Virus record (IMG/VR): IMGVR_UViG_3300025585_000137
Location: 1-28,252 of that record
From: a virus
Direction: 5' to 3' (one strand)
Length of the DNA: 28,252 nucleotides
The position numbers and the translations under genes were made by a program. Numbering within the stretch: position 1 is the stretch's first letter; each line of letters starts with the position of its first letter. The notes beneath the pieces are model-generated. The model worked only from the letters and a program-made list of their open reading frames with translations. It did not search any database and was not told the DNA's origin. Below, one piece after another: positions 11,549 to 28,252 of the stretch.

Positions 11549-11567
11549 GTCTACTGCCCCCTAAGGC

Positions 11568-11747
11568 TTAGCCGCCGAGAAATTCAGAGCCCGCAGCGGC
11601 AATCGCTGCGATGGTGGCGAGAATGCCAGCCAGCTTAGCTTTCCATCCGAGCTTGGGTTTATCGCCGTCCATCGGCAAAATCTTGTTAGTGGCTTCCTTG
11701 ACGACCGCCTTCTTCACGGCCTTCTCTGCCAGTTTCTTCAGGTCCAT
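11568..11747 (-). CDS. Small membrane protein in lysis cassette, holin-like candidate (59 aa)
   Basis: ATG 11747 has the best Shine-Dalgarno seen in the window (AGGAGG, five bases before the start). The product begins with a Lys-rich amphipathic helix (MDLKKLAEKAVKKAVVKEAT), has a charged middle (DGDKPKLGWKAK), and ends in one Ala/Ile-rich hydrophobic helix (about residues 38-54, LAGILATIAAIAAAG). It follows the GH19 endolysin gene by ten bases, which fits a holin, a pinholin-type protein or another small membrane partner of the lysis system. One short transmembrane segment and position are the only evidence. It could also be a minor virion protein. Confidence 0.55.
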   Translation of the reverse strand: MDLKKLAEKAVKKAVVKEATNKILPMDGDKPKLGWKAKLAGILATIAAIAAAGSEFLGG

Positions 11748-11752
11748 ATTGG

Positions 11753-11758
11753 CCTCCT
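11753..11758 (-). promoter_or_regulatory. Consensus Shine-Dalgarno (AGGAGG) for the 59-residue protein
   Basis: AGGAGG begins on the last base of the endolysin TAA stop and lies five bases before ATG 11747. It is the strongest ribosome binding site noticed in the window, suggesting high expression of the small membrane protein. Confidence 0.75.
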
Positions 11759-20208: not shown

Positions 20209-20696
20209 TATGCGATCCGGATAATGGCCGTGGTATTCGTGGCGGTCGGGAAGATGATGGTGAAGTCACCTGCCGTAGCCGTCTTGTCCGAGCCAAAATC
20301 CAACACGCAGACCGCAGCGTTCGTCAAAGCCGTGTTAGCGTTCGAGTTAGCTGAAGGCGTGGTGTTATAGATCAGAGCACCGCGAGCCGTGATGGTCGCG
20401 TTAGCAAAGGTCAAGTCGCCAAAATCGGTGAAGCCGACGCCGGTTTCCGCGTTCGTGTTTGTCGCAGTCACACCGAGGTTGGTCAGCGCGCCGCCGCCAG
20501 CCGAGTAGTTAGTGCCCGACGACGAAACTTCGTTCGACGAGGTATACGCCGTGGTGTTCGCATCAAGCGAAGCCGACGAAGTGTAAAGCGCGAGCTTAAA
20601 AGTATCCGCGCCCGTGTCGCCCGAAGGGCGGAAATCGTGTACACCGAGCAGAAGCTGAGCTTTGAAGCTGGTGCACATTGCCTGTGTAATACTCAT
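20208..20696 (-). CDS. Beta-rich virion protein (162 aa)
   Basis: The sequence (SFKAQLLLGVHDFRPSGDTG, FKLALYTSSASLDANTTAYT, ATITARGALIYNTTPSANSN, VCVLDFGSDKTATAGDFTII) is a family I recognise from many phages and prophages, always near capsid or tail genes. It is Thr/Ser/Asn/Ala-rich with alternating strands and has no transmembrane segment. There is an ATGA overlap with the endonuclease gene upstream and a TAATG junction downstream. Its exact place in the virion is unknown to me; a head or tail surface component is likely. I know of no enzymatic role. Confidence 0.65.
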   Translation of the reverse strand: MSITQAMCTSFKAQLLLGVHDFRPSGDTGADTFKLALYTSSASLDANTTAYTSSNEVSSSGTNYSAGGGALTNLGVTATNTNAETGVGFTDFGDLTFANATITARGALIYNTTPSANSNANTALTNAAVCVLDFGSDKTATAGDFTIIFPTATNTTAIIRIA

Positions 20697-21124
20697 TTCG
20701 TAGTCCTTTCCAAGTAGTTAGCCGCAGCTAACAGCCTAGCCGTATCATCATTAAACAACCCGAGACCCCGATTACACTTAGTGCATAGCAGCCCCCGGAC
20801 CTTACCGGTTCCATGGCAGTGATCTACAGCAAAATACTTAGTTCTACCACCCGGTTCTTTAACGCCACATATGGCACAGCCTCCGTTCTGGGCTTCCAAC
20901 ATGCGGTCATAGTCTTCTACGGTTATGCCGTACTGCCGCTTAAACTTACTGCGACGTTCCATCTCGTAGTAATGCGTTGGGTTTTCCGCCCTACGCCGAC
21001 GATTATATGTAGTTTTGCAGGGGTTGCAGACAGACACGAGCTTGCCGGGGCGGAAAGTGCGCCGCCGCGTAAAAGCCTCTATAGGCTTCACTTCCTTACA
21101 GGTAGAACAAGCGCGCGCTTCCAT
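20693..21124 (-). CDS. Endonuclease VII-type HNH endonuclease, second copy (143 aa)
   Basis: An N-terminal zinc knuckle (Cys 6, 9, 33, 36) is followed by a basic helix (TYNRRRRAENP) and the endonuclease VII core. Core features are GGCAICG with Cys 83 and 86, VDHCHGTGKVRGLLCTKCNR with the Asp-His-Cys-His catalytic cluster at 101-104, Cys 114 and 117, and Asn 118, then GLGLFNDD. T4 endonuclease VII (gp49) resolves branched DNA during packaging, but many short phage homologues like this behave as free-standing HNH nucleases. It shares its full architecture with the gene at 21411-21929, separated only by a 95-residue gene. All metal-binding residues are present, so it is probably active. Resolvase versus homing-type role cannot be decided here. 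Confidence 0.85.
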   Translation of the reverse strand: MEARACSTCKEVKPIEAFTRRRTFRPGKLVSVCNPCKTTYNRRRRAENPTHYYEMERRSKFKRQYGITVEDYDRMLEAQNGGCAICGVKEPGGRTKYFAVDHCHGTGKVRGLLCTKCNRGLGLFNDDTARLLAAANYLERTTK

Positions 21125-21126
21125 AC

Positions 21127-21414
21127 CTACGAGTCCAAAATGGGGATAAACTCTGGATGCCCGGCCTTGTGAAATTTGTTCACCAGAGTCACGTTATGGG
21201 ACCGGACAGCTTCGTGCATATAGTGAACGAGCACCTGACGGATGCTGTCCTTAAATGCTTCTGCTTGGTCCCGGATGGCCGGATGTGCGTTGCTGCCCAC
21301 GTGGATAATCTTGTCCAAAGCGCGCTCAGCAATTTCTTCGGGGGTGAAGCCACGACCCTGCGTGGTCACTACCATCACATCCCCACCTAGCATTGTTCCT
21401 ACGGAATCAATCAT
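21127..21414 (-). CDS. Conserved phage protein of unknown function (95 aa)
   Basis: The product is a soluble helical protein: GTMLGGDVMVVTTQGRGFTP, then EEIAERALDKIIHVGSNAHP, RDQAEAFKDSIRQVLVHYMH, and VRSHNVTLVNKFHKAGHPEF. I have seen this arrangement (GGDV, TTQGRGFTPEEIAERA, HPAIRDQA) as a small conserved gene in many tailed phages, but no role is known to me. Here it lies between two endonuclease VII-type genes, with ATGA overlap upstream and two bases to the next start. The nucleases may have inserted around an old structural-region gene. Confidence 0.62.
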   Translation of the reverse strand: MIDSVGTMLGGDVMVVTTQGRGFTPEEIAERALDKIIHVGSNAHPAIRDQAEAFKDSIRQVLVHYMHEAVRSHNVTLVNKFHKAGHPEFIPILDS

Positions 21415-21929
21415 TTGTGTCCCTTTAGATATTCCGCCGCTTTCTCCAGCAGGGATATATCATCTTTAAAGTACCCAAGTCCAGAATTACAGCTTACGCA
21501 TAGCAAGCTACGGATAGCCCCTGTATCATGGCAGTGGTCTATACAAAAGCGTTCCCTTTTGCCACCGGGGTTTTCGCTGGTACAAATAGCGCATTTACCC
21601 CCCTGAAGCAGATAAAGGCTTTGATACTGCTCTTCCGTAACTCCCAAAGTTTTACGGATATGCACCCGCCATTTAGCTAATTTGCGTTTGGCTGGCGCTT
21701 CGTCCTTGCGGCGTTGGATACGTGCTTCCCGTTCCTCTACCGTTTCACCCCGTGCCCGAGCCTTATACGCCTTAAATTTATCCGGATGCGCTTTGTAATA
21801 TTCGCGGTGGTCTTCGGCCCTACATGGCTTACACCTCGGATTACGCCTACCGTTTTTATGGGTGTGAAACTCCAACACCGACTTAACGGTTTTACATTTA
21901 GCGCAAGTCTTTGTCGGGACATCCAACAT
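21411..21929 (-). CDS. Endonuclease VII-type HNH endonuclease, first copy (172 aa)
   Basis: Cys 9, 12, 33 and 36 form an N-terminal zinc knuckle. A long basic helical linker (about 40-95, including EEREARIQRRKDEAPAKRKL) separates it from the core. The core has GGKCAICT with Cys 113 and 116, FCIDHCHDTGAIRSLLCVSC with Asp-His-Cys-His at 131-134 and Cys 144 and 147, then Asn 148 and GLGYFKDD. This is the recombination endonuclease VII pattern. The linker is about 30 residues longer than in the neighbouring copy. It starts one base after the adaptor gene's stop and overlaps the following gene by ATGA. Debranching of replicating DNA before packaging, or spread as a mobile HNH gene, are both plausible. 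Confidence 0.85.
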   Translation of the reverse strand: MLDVPTKTCAKCKTVKSVLEFHTHKNGRRNPRCKPCRAEDHREYYKAHPDKFKAYKARARGETVEEREARIQRRKDEAPAKRKLAKWRVHIRKTLGVTEEQYQSLYLLQGGKCAICTSENPGGKRERFCIDHCHDTGAIRSLLCVSCNSGLGYFKDDISLLEKAAEYLKGHK

Positions 21930-26947: not shown

Positions 26948-27541
26948 TTAGCTGACTGCGCTTGCAACTACCAAGAAGTAGTCCGAGCCAGCGATGCGAA
27001 CCTTGATACCACCAGCAAGCGTGCTGCTGCTCGTGGCAGCCGTGAAGACGCCTGTGCCCGACTCAATGTTCATGAGGCGGGTCAGCTTGCCTGCACCAGC
27101 GCCGCTGTCCGAAACACGGATAAACGCACTTGCTGCACTAACCGACGTGCCCGAAGCGAAGTTGGTGTCCAACTGGAGAGCAGCAAGAGTGCCGCCCGGC
27201 GAGTTAACCGAAGCACCAATGGTAGCGCGGATAGCGTTAGCAGCGCCCGAAATCGTGCCGCCAGTCGTAACTTCCGTCGAAGCGTGGATGCCGTTGATCG
27301 TGCCAGCCGCCGCAGCGCCTGCGCCAGAAACAACCGAGAAAGCGCGGATGGTTTCGCCCGAACCGGTCGAAGTAAAGGTCAGCTTATCATAGACAAGGCG
27401 GGTGTCACCCGTGGTAGCCGAAGTCGAACCATAAGAGGCCGAGATGTTACCAGCAGTGGTGACGGTGATGGGGTCAGTCGGAGTGCCGCCAATGAAACCA
27501 TTTTGCGACGCTACGGGACCCGAAAAAGTAGTCAAACCCAT
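26948..27541 (-). CDS. Beta-rich capsid-associated protein following MCP (197 aa)
   Basis: GGAG lies seven bases before ATG 27541, and a structured leader lies upstream. The start (GLTTFSGPVASQNGFIGG) and the beta pattern (PITVTTAGNISASYGSTSAT, GTINGIHASTEVTTGGTISG, AIRATIGASVNSPGGTLAAL, AASAFIRVSDSGAGAGKLTR) end with AGGIKVRIAGSDYFLVVAS. It is Ser/Thr/Ala/Gly-rich, soluble, and has no Cys. Its place directly behind the capsid gene suggests a head decoration or head fibre protein made in large amounts. No homology was tested. Confidence 0.62.
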   Translation of the reverse strand: MGLTTFSGPVASQNGFIGGTPTDPITVTTAGNISASYGSTSATTGDTRLVYDKLTFTSTGSGETIRAFSVVSGAGAAAAGTINGIHASTEVTTGGTISGAANAIRATIGASVNSPGGTLAALQLDTNFASGTSVSAASAFIRVSDSGAGAGKLTRLMNIESGTGVFTAATSSSTLAGGIKVRIAGSDYFLVVASAVS

Positions 27542-27548
27542 TGATTTT

Positions 27549-27552
27549 CTCC
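27549..27552 (-). promoter_or_regulatory. Shine-Dalgarno (GGAG) next to structured leader
   Basis: GGAG lies seven bases before ATG 27541 and only two bases after the end of the CTACTAC repeat arm. Its access could depend on how the upstream inverted repeats fold. Confidence 0.6.
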
Positions 27553-27554
27553 GT

Positions 27555-27612
27555 GTAGTAGCACTTGCCTCGTACCGTCTCTACTACGTCTGCTAGGGCA
27601 GTCGGTACGAGA
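27555..27612 (-). promoter_or_regulatory. Structured RNA leader: interleaved inverted repeats, possible H-type pseudoknot
   Basis: In transcript sense, CTCGTACCG (27611-27603) pairs perfectly with CGGTACGAG (27577-27569), plus one G-U pair (27612/27568). GTAGTAG (27587-27581), which lies in the loop, pairs perfectly with CTACTAC (27561-27555) beyond the stem. A small CTGC/GCAG hairpin (27601-27598/27593-27590) fills the rest of the loop. The two main stems interleave and form either a pseudoknot or, if the seven-base connecting loop is too short, two competing hairpins. The fold ends directly before the Shine-Dalgarno of the 197-residue gene. Pairing is seen in the sequence; function is inferred. 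Confidence 0.6.
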
Positions 27613-27641
27613 ATTTCACCTAGTTACGCAGATATACCACT

Positions 27642-27672
27642 AAAAAGAAAAGAGGGGAAGAAGTTTCCCTCT
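27642..27672 (-). terminator. Rho-independent terminator-like hairpin after the capsid gene
   Basis: In transcript sense, AGAGGG-AA (27672-27665) pairs with TT-C-CCCTCT (27659-27651) with one bulged C and a five-base loop. It is followed by TTTCTTTTT (27650-27642). A purine run (GGGGGAGGGGGAGAGGG) precedes the stem. It lies 19 bases after the capsid stop. It could terminate or attenuate transcription so that capsid mRNA exceeds the downstream genes. Confidence 0.55.
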
Positions 27673-27690
27673 CCCCCTCCCCCTGCTTCC

Positions 27691-28252
27691 TTAGGCAGCG
27701 CCTACGGAACCGTACATGCCCAGCGGGTCAGACCAGCCGAACGAATAACGCTCGCGGGCCTTGTAGCGGACGTTGCCGGTGTCGAAGTCGCCGTCCATGC
27801 TCTGAGCGAGCGGGGTACGGACGAAGTGCTTCAGACCATTTGGCACATCCGTCGTCAAGAACCAAGCATCGGTGTCGGTCAGGAAGTGGTTAACGGTGTA
27901 ACCTTCCGGGATCGAGCCGTTGCTCTTGATGGCGTTGATGTCGTTATCAGCCGTAGCAACGCGAAGCTCGGTTTCGAGCAAGCGGGTCGCAACGAACTGG
28001 AGTGACGGCGGAATAACCAACTTGCGCGGCTTAGCTGCGATCAGCAGGCCACGTTCGTCCGTCCACGCAGCGATCTGAATAACAGCGTTTTCAAGCGCCG
28101 TTTCGTTCAGGTCGGTAGCGACCGACGGAATGTTCGAGTTGGTACCACCGGAGACCAGCGGGTGAGCATCCGAGAAGAGCGGCTGACCGTCACCACCGGG
28201 GTAGTCCGTGTCAAAACCGTTGTTCAGGATAGCAGCAGCCTTGGTCTGCTTG
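27691..28252 (-). CDS. Major capsid protein, C-terminal 187 residues (HK97-type candidate; runs off right edge)
   Basis: The frame is open from the right window edge to TAA at 27691, so only the C-terminal part is seen. It contains NNGFDTDYPGGDGQPLFSDA followed by HPLVSGGTNSN, a hallmark of a capsid group with DG-x-x-LFSxxHP. It continues with ENAVIQIAAWTDERGLLIAA, KPRKLVIPPSLQFVATRLLE, and TADNDINAIKSNG. The ending, TDTDAWFLTTDVPNGLKHFV, then DTGNVRYKARERYSFGWSDP and LGMYGS, closes the axial/peripheral part as in HK97-fold coat proteins of many uncultured phages. Mu gpT-like capsid proteins share the LFSxxHx motif. It sets the structural direction of the cluster. The GC-rich gene is followed by the terminator-like hairpin. 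Confidence 0.85.
   Translation of the reverse strand, partial: KQTKAAAILNNGFDTDYPGGDGQPLFSDAHPLVSGGTNSNIPSVATDLNETALENAVIQIAAWTDERGLLIAAKPRKLVIPPSLQFVATRLLETELRVATADNDINAIKSNGSIPEGYTVNHFLTDTDAWFLTTDVPNGLKHFVRTPLAQSMDGDFDTGNVRYKARERYSFGWSDPLGMYGSVGAA

Follow-up and report, generated by a model that had tools for sequence, protein, structure and literature searches.

A leader RNA with interleaved pairings, built of five helices (A-A', B, C, D-D', and E), is conserved, as judged from comparison with related phages, immediately before a cement-type virion gene in IMG/VR record IMGVR_UViG_3300025585_000137 (hereafter the window, meaning the whole 28,252-nt stretch that was analysed). The RNA is best read as the leader of that downstream gene, normally situated behind a promoter-like box and the terminator that closes the gene for the major capsid protein (MCP), and it probably controls initiation of cement-gene translation through occlusion of the Shine-Dalgarno (SD) sequence, an inference drawn from sequence in the absence of transcript, probing, or expression data.

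Organization of the window locus

The window's genes lie on the minus strand, as do all of the features described in this section. Upstream is the 3' part of an MCP gene (27691..28252, cut at the window end), whose product matches Pfam Mu-like_gpT (PF10124) with 35.4 bits against a cut-off of 20.1 and also matches phrog_371, major head protein. Downstream is a gene (26948..27541) whose product begins MGLTTFSGPV; its function name is inferred, the TTFSGPV N-terminus recurring in a relative from phage DSL-LC04 that carries the annotation 'cement protein', and the protein is 52-54% identical to those encoded behind the same leader in loci L020 and L035. A first-pass annotation had proposed a pseudoknot at 27555-27612 between a capsid gene and the next virion gene; the location is borne out by these neighbors, and the site is right, while the extent falls slightly short, given that the first base of helix A is 27623 and that the leader continues to the start codon at 27541. 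The same annotation had singled out this stretch as the sole long intergenic gap in a densely packed window, which also holds, because the one further stretch that looks empty (11549-11757) is occupied by a 59-codon ORF (MDLKKLAEKAVKK..., 11568-11747) preceded by its own SD. Elsewhere in the window, two ORFs at 20693-21124 and 21411-21929 (DHCHGTGKVRGLLCTKCN and DHCHDTGAIRSLLCVSCN, respectively) look HNH/endonuclease VII-like by eye and may be homing endonucleases that lie among the clustered virion genes.

The leader RNA lies 68-150 nt behind the MCP stop codon (MCP end, 27691; next start codon, 27541). Between the MCP gene and the RNA are an intrinsic terminator (27648..27683), which consists of a 16-pair hairpin and a T tract, and a promoter-like -10 box, TATATC (27631..27636), which is weak (4/6 matches) and is positioned 7 nt before helix A; a -35 element was looked for and none was found. 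The fold itself opens with the 5' strand of helix A (CUAGG, 27619..27623), which forms a 5-bp pairing between the 5' end of the RNA and the loop of the small hairpin C (CUG/CAG, 27590..27601), wherein the complementary A' strand (CCUAG) occupies 27597-27593. The strands of helix B (27603..27612 and 27568..27577) enclose hairpin C and a linker, and B' ends 15 nt before the SD. Within the linker lies the 5' strand of helix D (GUAGUAG, 27581..27587), the partner of which (27561-27555) largely coincides with the loop of a mini-hairpin, E (GUG-CUACUA-CAC, 27553..27564). The SD, GGAG (27549..27552), directly follows hairpin E and is itself unpaired.

The elements from which the original proposal was built are all present, namely the 9-bp inverted repeat CTCGTACCG/CGGTACGAG (27611-27603 with 27577-27569, extended by a closing U.G), the 7-bp repeat GTAGTAG/CTACTAC (27587-27581 with 27561-27555) that interleaves with it, the small third hairpin CTG..CAG in the loop (27601-27590), and the termination of the fold just before the SD, the downstream arm ending 2 bases from GGAG (27552-27549) and 3 from GAG. 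It had been objected that one connecting loop of only 7 bases must cross a stem of 9-10 bp; this difficulty is less pressing because hairpin E presents the D' arm in its loop, which turns D from a classical H-type stem into a pairing between loop and strand. Helix A-A', mini-hairpin E, the MCP terminator, the promoter-like box, and the relation to Mu-gpT-DE (discussed below) had all been absent from that proposal.

Comparison of the window sequence with chance

In a plain fold, the 74-nt element by itself does not stand out from shuffled sequences (z -1.6), and single-sequence folding could thus prove nothing; the leader taken whole (155 nt) outperforms its shuffles (z -3.3), with a contribution from the terminator. 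A long-range pairing of UAGUGGUAU with GUGCUACUA in the minimum-energy fold was set aside because these bases lie upstream of the inferred transcript start, and its conservation was not assessed. A loose structure descriptor applied over whole loci gave many false matches and was replaced by a tight descriptor with a reversed-sequence control, under which the window site scored 19.3, compared with 13.9 for the next independent site on the same strand, 15.6 for the best site on the opposite strand, and a maximum of 18.0 in 80 reversed loci.

Comparative evidence for the helices

Relatives of the window MCP are numerous (at least 600 in IMG/VR and 21 among phage records), and the same arrangement is found downstream of the MCP gene in many of them. 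IMG/VR was scanned with two loop patterns, each taken from a different subtype and free of any stem requirement, and each scan gave at least 120 stretches; with the second loop pattern, helix A was found upstream in all 116 usable matches, and B and D met set thresholds in 104 of the 116. Two pattern matches (L083 and L191) were treated as chance and removed. Among the matches listed, the pooled set comprises at least 283 leaders from IMG/VR contigs and phage records, 152 of which share less than 85% mutual identity. Two classes recur below: the class of the window, with a 12-nt linker, and a marine class, with an 11-nt linker.

The strongest support comes from the B and C core, in which 94.2% of cells are paired (58.1% when shuffled, at most 47% when slid), both-side changes occur in 13/13 pairs (including all ten pairs of B), and 183 double changes are counted against 53.5 in shuffles. 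These counts were made on a gap-free 45-nt core, as the full-leader MAFFT alignment had shifted the register of B, and the set employed (A2) omits leaders with fewer than 7/9 B pairs or a broken C stem, so that the figure of 94% is somewhat generous. In the unfiltered 152 leaders, B nonetheless retains a mean of 8.3/9 pairs (best of four linker lengths), versus 5.7 for a control under the same rule. A core model, R1, matches the window element with 55.1 bits, although the window sequence is itself among the 37 sequences from which R1 was built.

Helices A, D, and E were counted by script on anchored leaders. The complement of a leader's own A' is found upstream in 146/152 leaders, compared with 1.5% when the A' of another class is used, and nine different pairings are represented; in 3 of the 6 exceptions, a longer C stem moves the loop out of the fixed search frame. 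For D-D', leaders of the window class average 6.2 Watson-Crick pairs, as opposed to 3.6 with swapped partners, whereas the marine class has no excess over swapped partners. Hairpin E has at least 3 Watson-Crick pairs in 87/96 leaders and appears in compensatory versions (GTG/CAC, GAG/CTC, GCG/CGC, CTC/GAG, and CTT/AAG), with the caveat that it is short and that its control rate with shuffled flanks is high (39%). The covariation in both stems that the first-pass annotation had proposed as its check is found for B in the window and marine classes and for the 7-bp stem D in the window's own class; the comparative evidence for a conserved pseudoknot is decisive and far above chance.

Assignment of the leader to the downstream gene

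The elements flanking the window leader recur across the set. Of 170 non-redundant gaps between the MCP gene and the RNA, 151 contain an intrinsic terminator (shuffles, 0.4). A TATAAT-like box (at least 5/6 matches) is present in 91 of 142 window-class leaders (shuffles, 30%), and in 56 of those 91 its end is precisely 9 nt upstream of helix A. The combination of terminator and promoter-like box suggests the 5' leader of a separate mRNA, the transcript of which is inferred, without transcript data, to start within a few bases of helix A. On the other side, the start codon falls 41-66 nt from hairpin C in every leader for which one was found, and the downstream genes mostly start with MAxTTFSGPV or a close variant.

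That the RNA belongs to the cement-type gene is indicated by its staying with that gene when other genes intervene or when the MCP gene lies elsewhere. Fifty loci have additional sequence between the MCP gene and the RNA, with the RNA still placed at the start codon of the next gene; a simple motif search gives HNH- or GIY-like signatures for 22 of them. In seven marine contigs, a homologous MCP was not found directly upstream of the RNA; the large upstream protein belongs to a portal family (phrog_1216) in 4 of these, and in L093 and L183 the MCP gene lies ~4 kb downstream.

Rearranged orders were observed in the marine contigs L105, L118, L131, L137, and L151, where a portal or small gene is followed by the leader RNA and the cement-type gene. 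In L151, the order by eye is a large portal-like protein, a small gene, the RNA, the cement-type gene, and a GroES-like gene; in L105 and L131, the RNA begins right at the portal stop codon, leaving no space for a terminator or promoter.

Distribution among phages

The leader is abundant in freshwater and marine phages, is present in cultured isolates, and occurs as a single copy in nearly all of the long contigs searched. Phage records with the element include the isolate Pelagibacter phage HTVC023P, phage DSL-LC04, and the Manatee Spring genome MW202675, the last of which was found by the descriptor and missed by model R1. No copy was found in three phages that have a homologous MCP, namely Caulobacter phage RW, Alcaligenes phage vB_Af_QDWS535, and Pelagibacter phage HTVC027P. 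Four contigs (L464-L467) from metagenome-assembled genomes binned as Chitinophagales, Dehalococcoidia, Alphaproteobacteria, and Chloroflexi carry a window-type element alongside the same MCP; they probably represent phage DNA that was either binned together with these hosts or integrated into them. A further pair (L462 and L463) constitutes the two ends of a single 65,464-base contig, with an MCP gene, an inserted gene, and a leader RNA at each end and different genes behind the leader (MSRTTFSGPV and MALSTTQSIW, respectively); this arrangement could reflect duplication of the module or the joining of two strains at the ends of the contig.

Relation to Mu-gpT-DE and other known RNAs

No gathering match to Rfam 15 covariance models was obtained in the window or in 15 loci, and no credible weak match fell on the element; sub-threshold matches to microRNA and molybdenum-riboswitch models fall on the terminator and were taken as chance. 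A search for tRNA and tmRNA found none.

The closest known family is Mu-gpT-DE (Rfam RF03012), of which the window RNA is not filed as a member by the model test: the RF03012 covariance model gives no match to the window record up to E 10 and none at the gathering score. That score was passed by one of 25 records, Roseobacter phage CRP-902, in which the match (72.3 bits) lies at exactly the same site. The two RNAs share this site behind a gpT-like MCP gene and directly before a MAxTTFSGPV-type gene, the order of the core (B, one A, hairpin C, linker, B'), and an SD in or near a helix, and when contigs were scanned by pattern for elements resembling RF03012, 116 matches came up, with an MCP gene upstream and mostly the same type of gene downstream. 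They differ in that stem B of Mu-gpT-DE is short and contains the SD (UCCUG/CAGGA), whereas that of the window is longer and leaves the SD outside, and in that A-A', D-D', and E are not in the RF03012 model. RF03012 is, moreover, filed as an sRNA and named after the upstream gene, while the present evidence points to a leader of the downstream gene. A literature search yielded no paper on the function of Mu-gpT-DE, and its original description is probably outside the literature covered.

The marine class appears to link the window RNA to Mu-gpT-DE stepwise. Its A, B, and C are as in the window, and its linker, ACAAGCCAAGA, resembles the RF03012 linker, ACACUAGCCACGA; the linker is strongly conserved in both Mu-gpT-DE (partly by pattern selection) and the marine class. 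Model R1, built for the window class, detects the marine class (E 1e-9 to 2e-3) and reaches no Mu-gpT-DE site below E 0.2 (one match, L366, has E 0.22 and an unchecked position), whereas a marine model, R2, finds four Mu-gpT-DE sites (E 0.01-0.09) and the RF03012 model finds five marine sites (E 0.005-0.23), all weak and exactly placed. On these comparisons, the window RNA is probably a larger, divergent relative of Mu-gpT-DE by descent, which is not proven. The SD adjoins or lies inside hairpin E in the window class, is enclosed in a separate hairpin in most marine-class leaders, and is part of stem B in Mu-gpT-DE. Some marine leaders (e.g., L103, L109, and L126) place the SD in a near-perfect hairpin, ATTAAG-GAGA-CTTAAT, partly in a GNRA-like tetraloop; other marine members have TTTCC..GGAAA around GGAGG.

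Beyond Rfam, the two interleaved conserved stems (B and D) upstream of the start codon in the window class satisfy the structural criterion for an operator of the T4 gene 32 type. That pseudoknot, which likewise lies in a phage leader and controls translation, is located 67 nt upstream of the start codon, nucleates cooperative gp32 binding, and was described in a 2010 review as possibly the only viral example for translation autoregulation (PMC3014915); it differs from the window RNA in fold and position and has a known regulator, while the window fold abuts the SD and its regulator is unknown. The leaders of rpsO (ribosomal protein S15) likewise have different RNA structures in different lineages, with a pseudoknot operator in E. 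coli (PMC4684408, PMC3014915), although those structures appear to be independently derived and their binding protein is known, whereas the phage subclasses share a core and have no known binder.

Proposed function and alternative explanations

Control of translation initiation at the cement gene is the best supported of the functions originally offered and remains the likelier account, if an inferred one, because a helix contains or adjoins the SD in every subclass, the RNA stands at a near-fixed distance from the start codon, and a single type of gene is targeted. Sequence comparison shows that the MCP gene ends at its terminator and that the RNA beyond it folds into A-A', B, C, D-D', and E, up to the SD and start codon with which the cement-type gene opens. 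In the proposed mechanism, the cement transcript would start at the promoter-like box a few bases before helix A, and the fold would occlude the SD or its ribosome footprint, which would set, and probably regulate, cement translation relative to that of the separately expressed MCP. The regulator is undetermined: a virion protein acting autogenously is the first guess, a small molecule or no ligand at all being the other options. In phage GP4, the cement protein and the MCP are each present in 540 copies (PMC9698820), and a cement copy number that can equal that of the MCP would supply a reason for separate tuning.

The main rival, regarded as unlikely, is that the fold merely stabilizes the message by tying up its 5' terminus and blocking 5'-dependent decay, with no control of initiation; the fixed-distance promoter-like box speaks for such a role, as only a few bases then separate helix A from the inferred 5' end, but in several marine contigs the RNA directly follows a portal or small gene without space for a terminator or promoter, and the helix at or beside the SD, a feature of every subclass, is left unexplained. 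A riboswitch in which a metabolite or ion acts on the SD seems a distant prospect. Its appeal rests on the compact pseudoknotted fold ending at the SD and on the linker conservation in Mu-gpT-DE and the marine class, against which must be set the restriction to one virion protein gene and the lack of any Rfam riboswitch match; in the window class, furthermore, most linker bases belong to a covarying helix and few conserved bases are unpaired, such that a specific ligand is not obvious.

Very little weight is given to an mRNA processing element (a self-cleaving ribozyme or an RNase site) that separates the MCP and cement messages, an idea suggested by the position between two virion genes and by double pseudoknots, which are common in small ribozymes. 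In most of the phages a terminator already separates the two messages, the structure is anchored to the SD rather than to the MCP stop codon, and no known ribozyme family is matched. An operator (the first-pass annotation had listed a protein-binding one) or other binding site at the DNA level can scarcely be maintained: inverted repeats near a promoter-like box would fit it, but it is already contradicted by the covariation pattern, as the arms vary freely while pairing is kept, G.U pairs are included (86/1368 B cells), the pairings interleave, and the orientation and the distance to the start codon are fixed. Occlusion of the SD within a leader RNA accordingly remains the preferred reading.

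Outlook

The abundance of the leader, its presence in isolates, its very strong covariation, and its one target gene render its function directly testable. RF03012, hitherto an orphan, may be recast as one branch of a family of downstream-gene leader RNAs, with the addition of helices that its model is without. More speculatively, and with doubt outweighing confidence, Mu-gpT-DE could be a small branch of a large unannotated leader-RNA superfamily whose members detect free capsid or cement protein and, through an SD that is opened or closed, adjust cement synthesis to capsid assembly. Structured, conserved RNAs controlling the virion genes of tailed phages are little documented, and such a superfamily, if real, would represent RNA-based stoichiometry control of virion assembly in tailed DNA phages.
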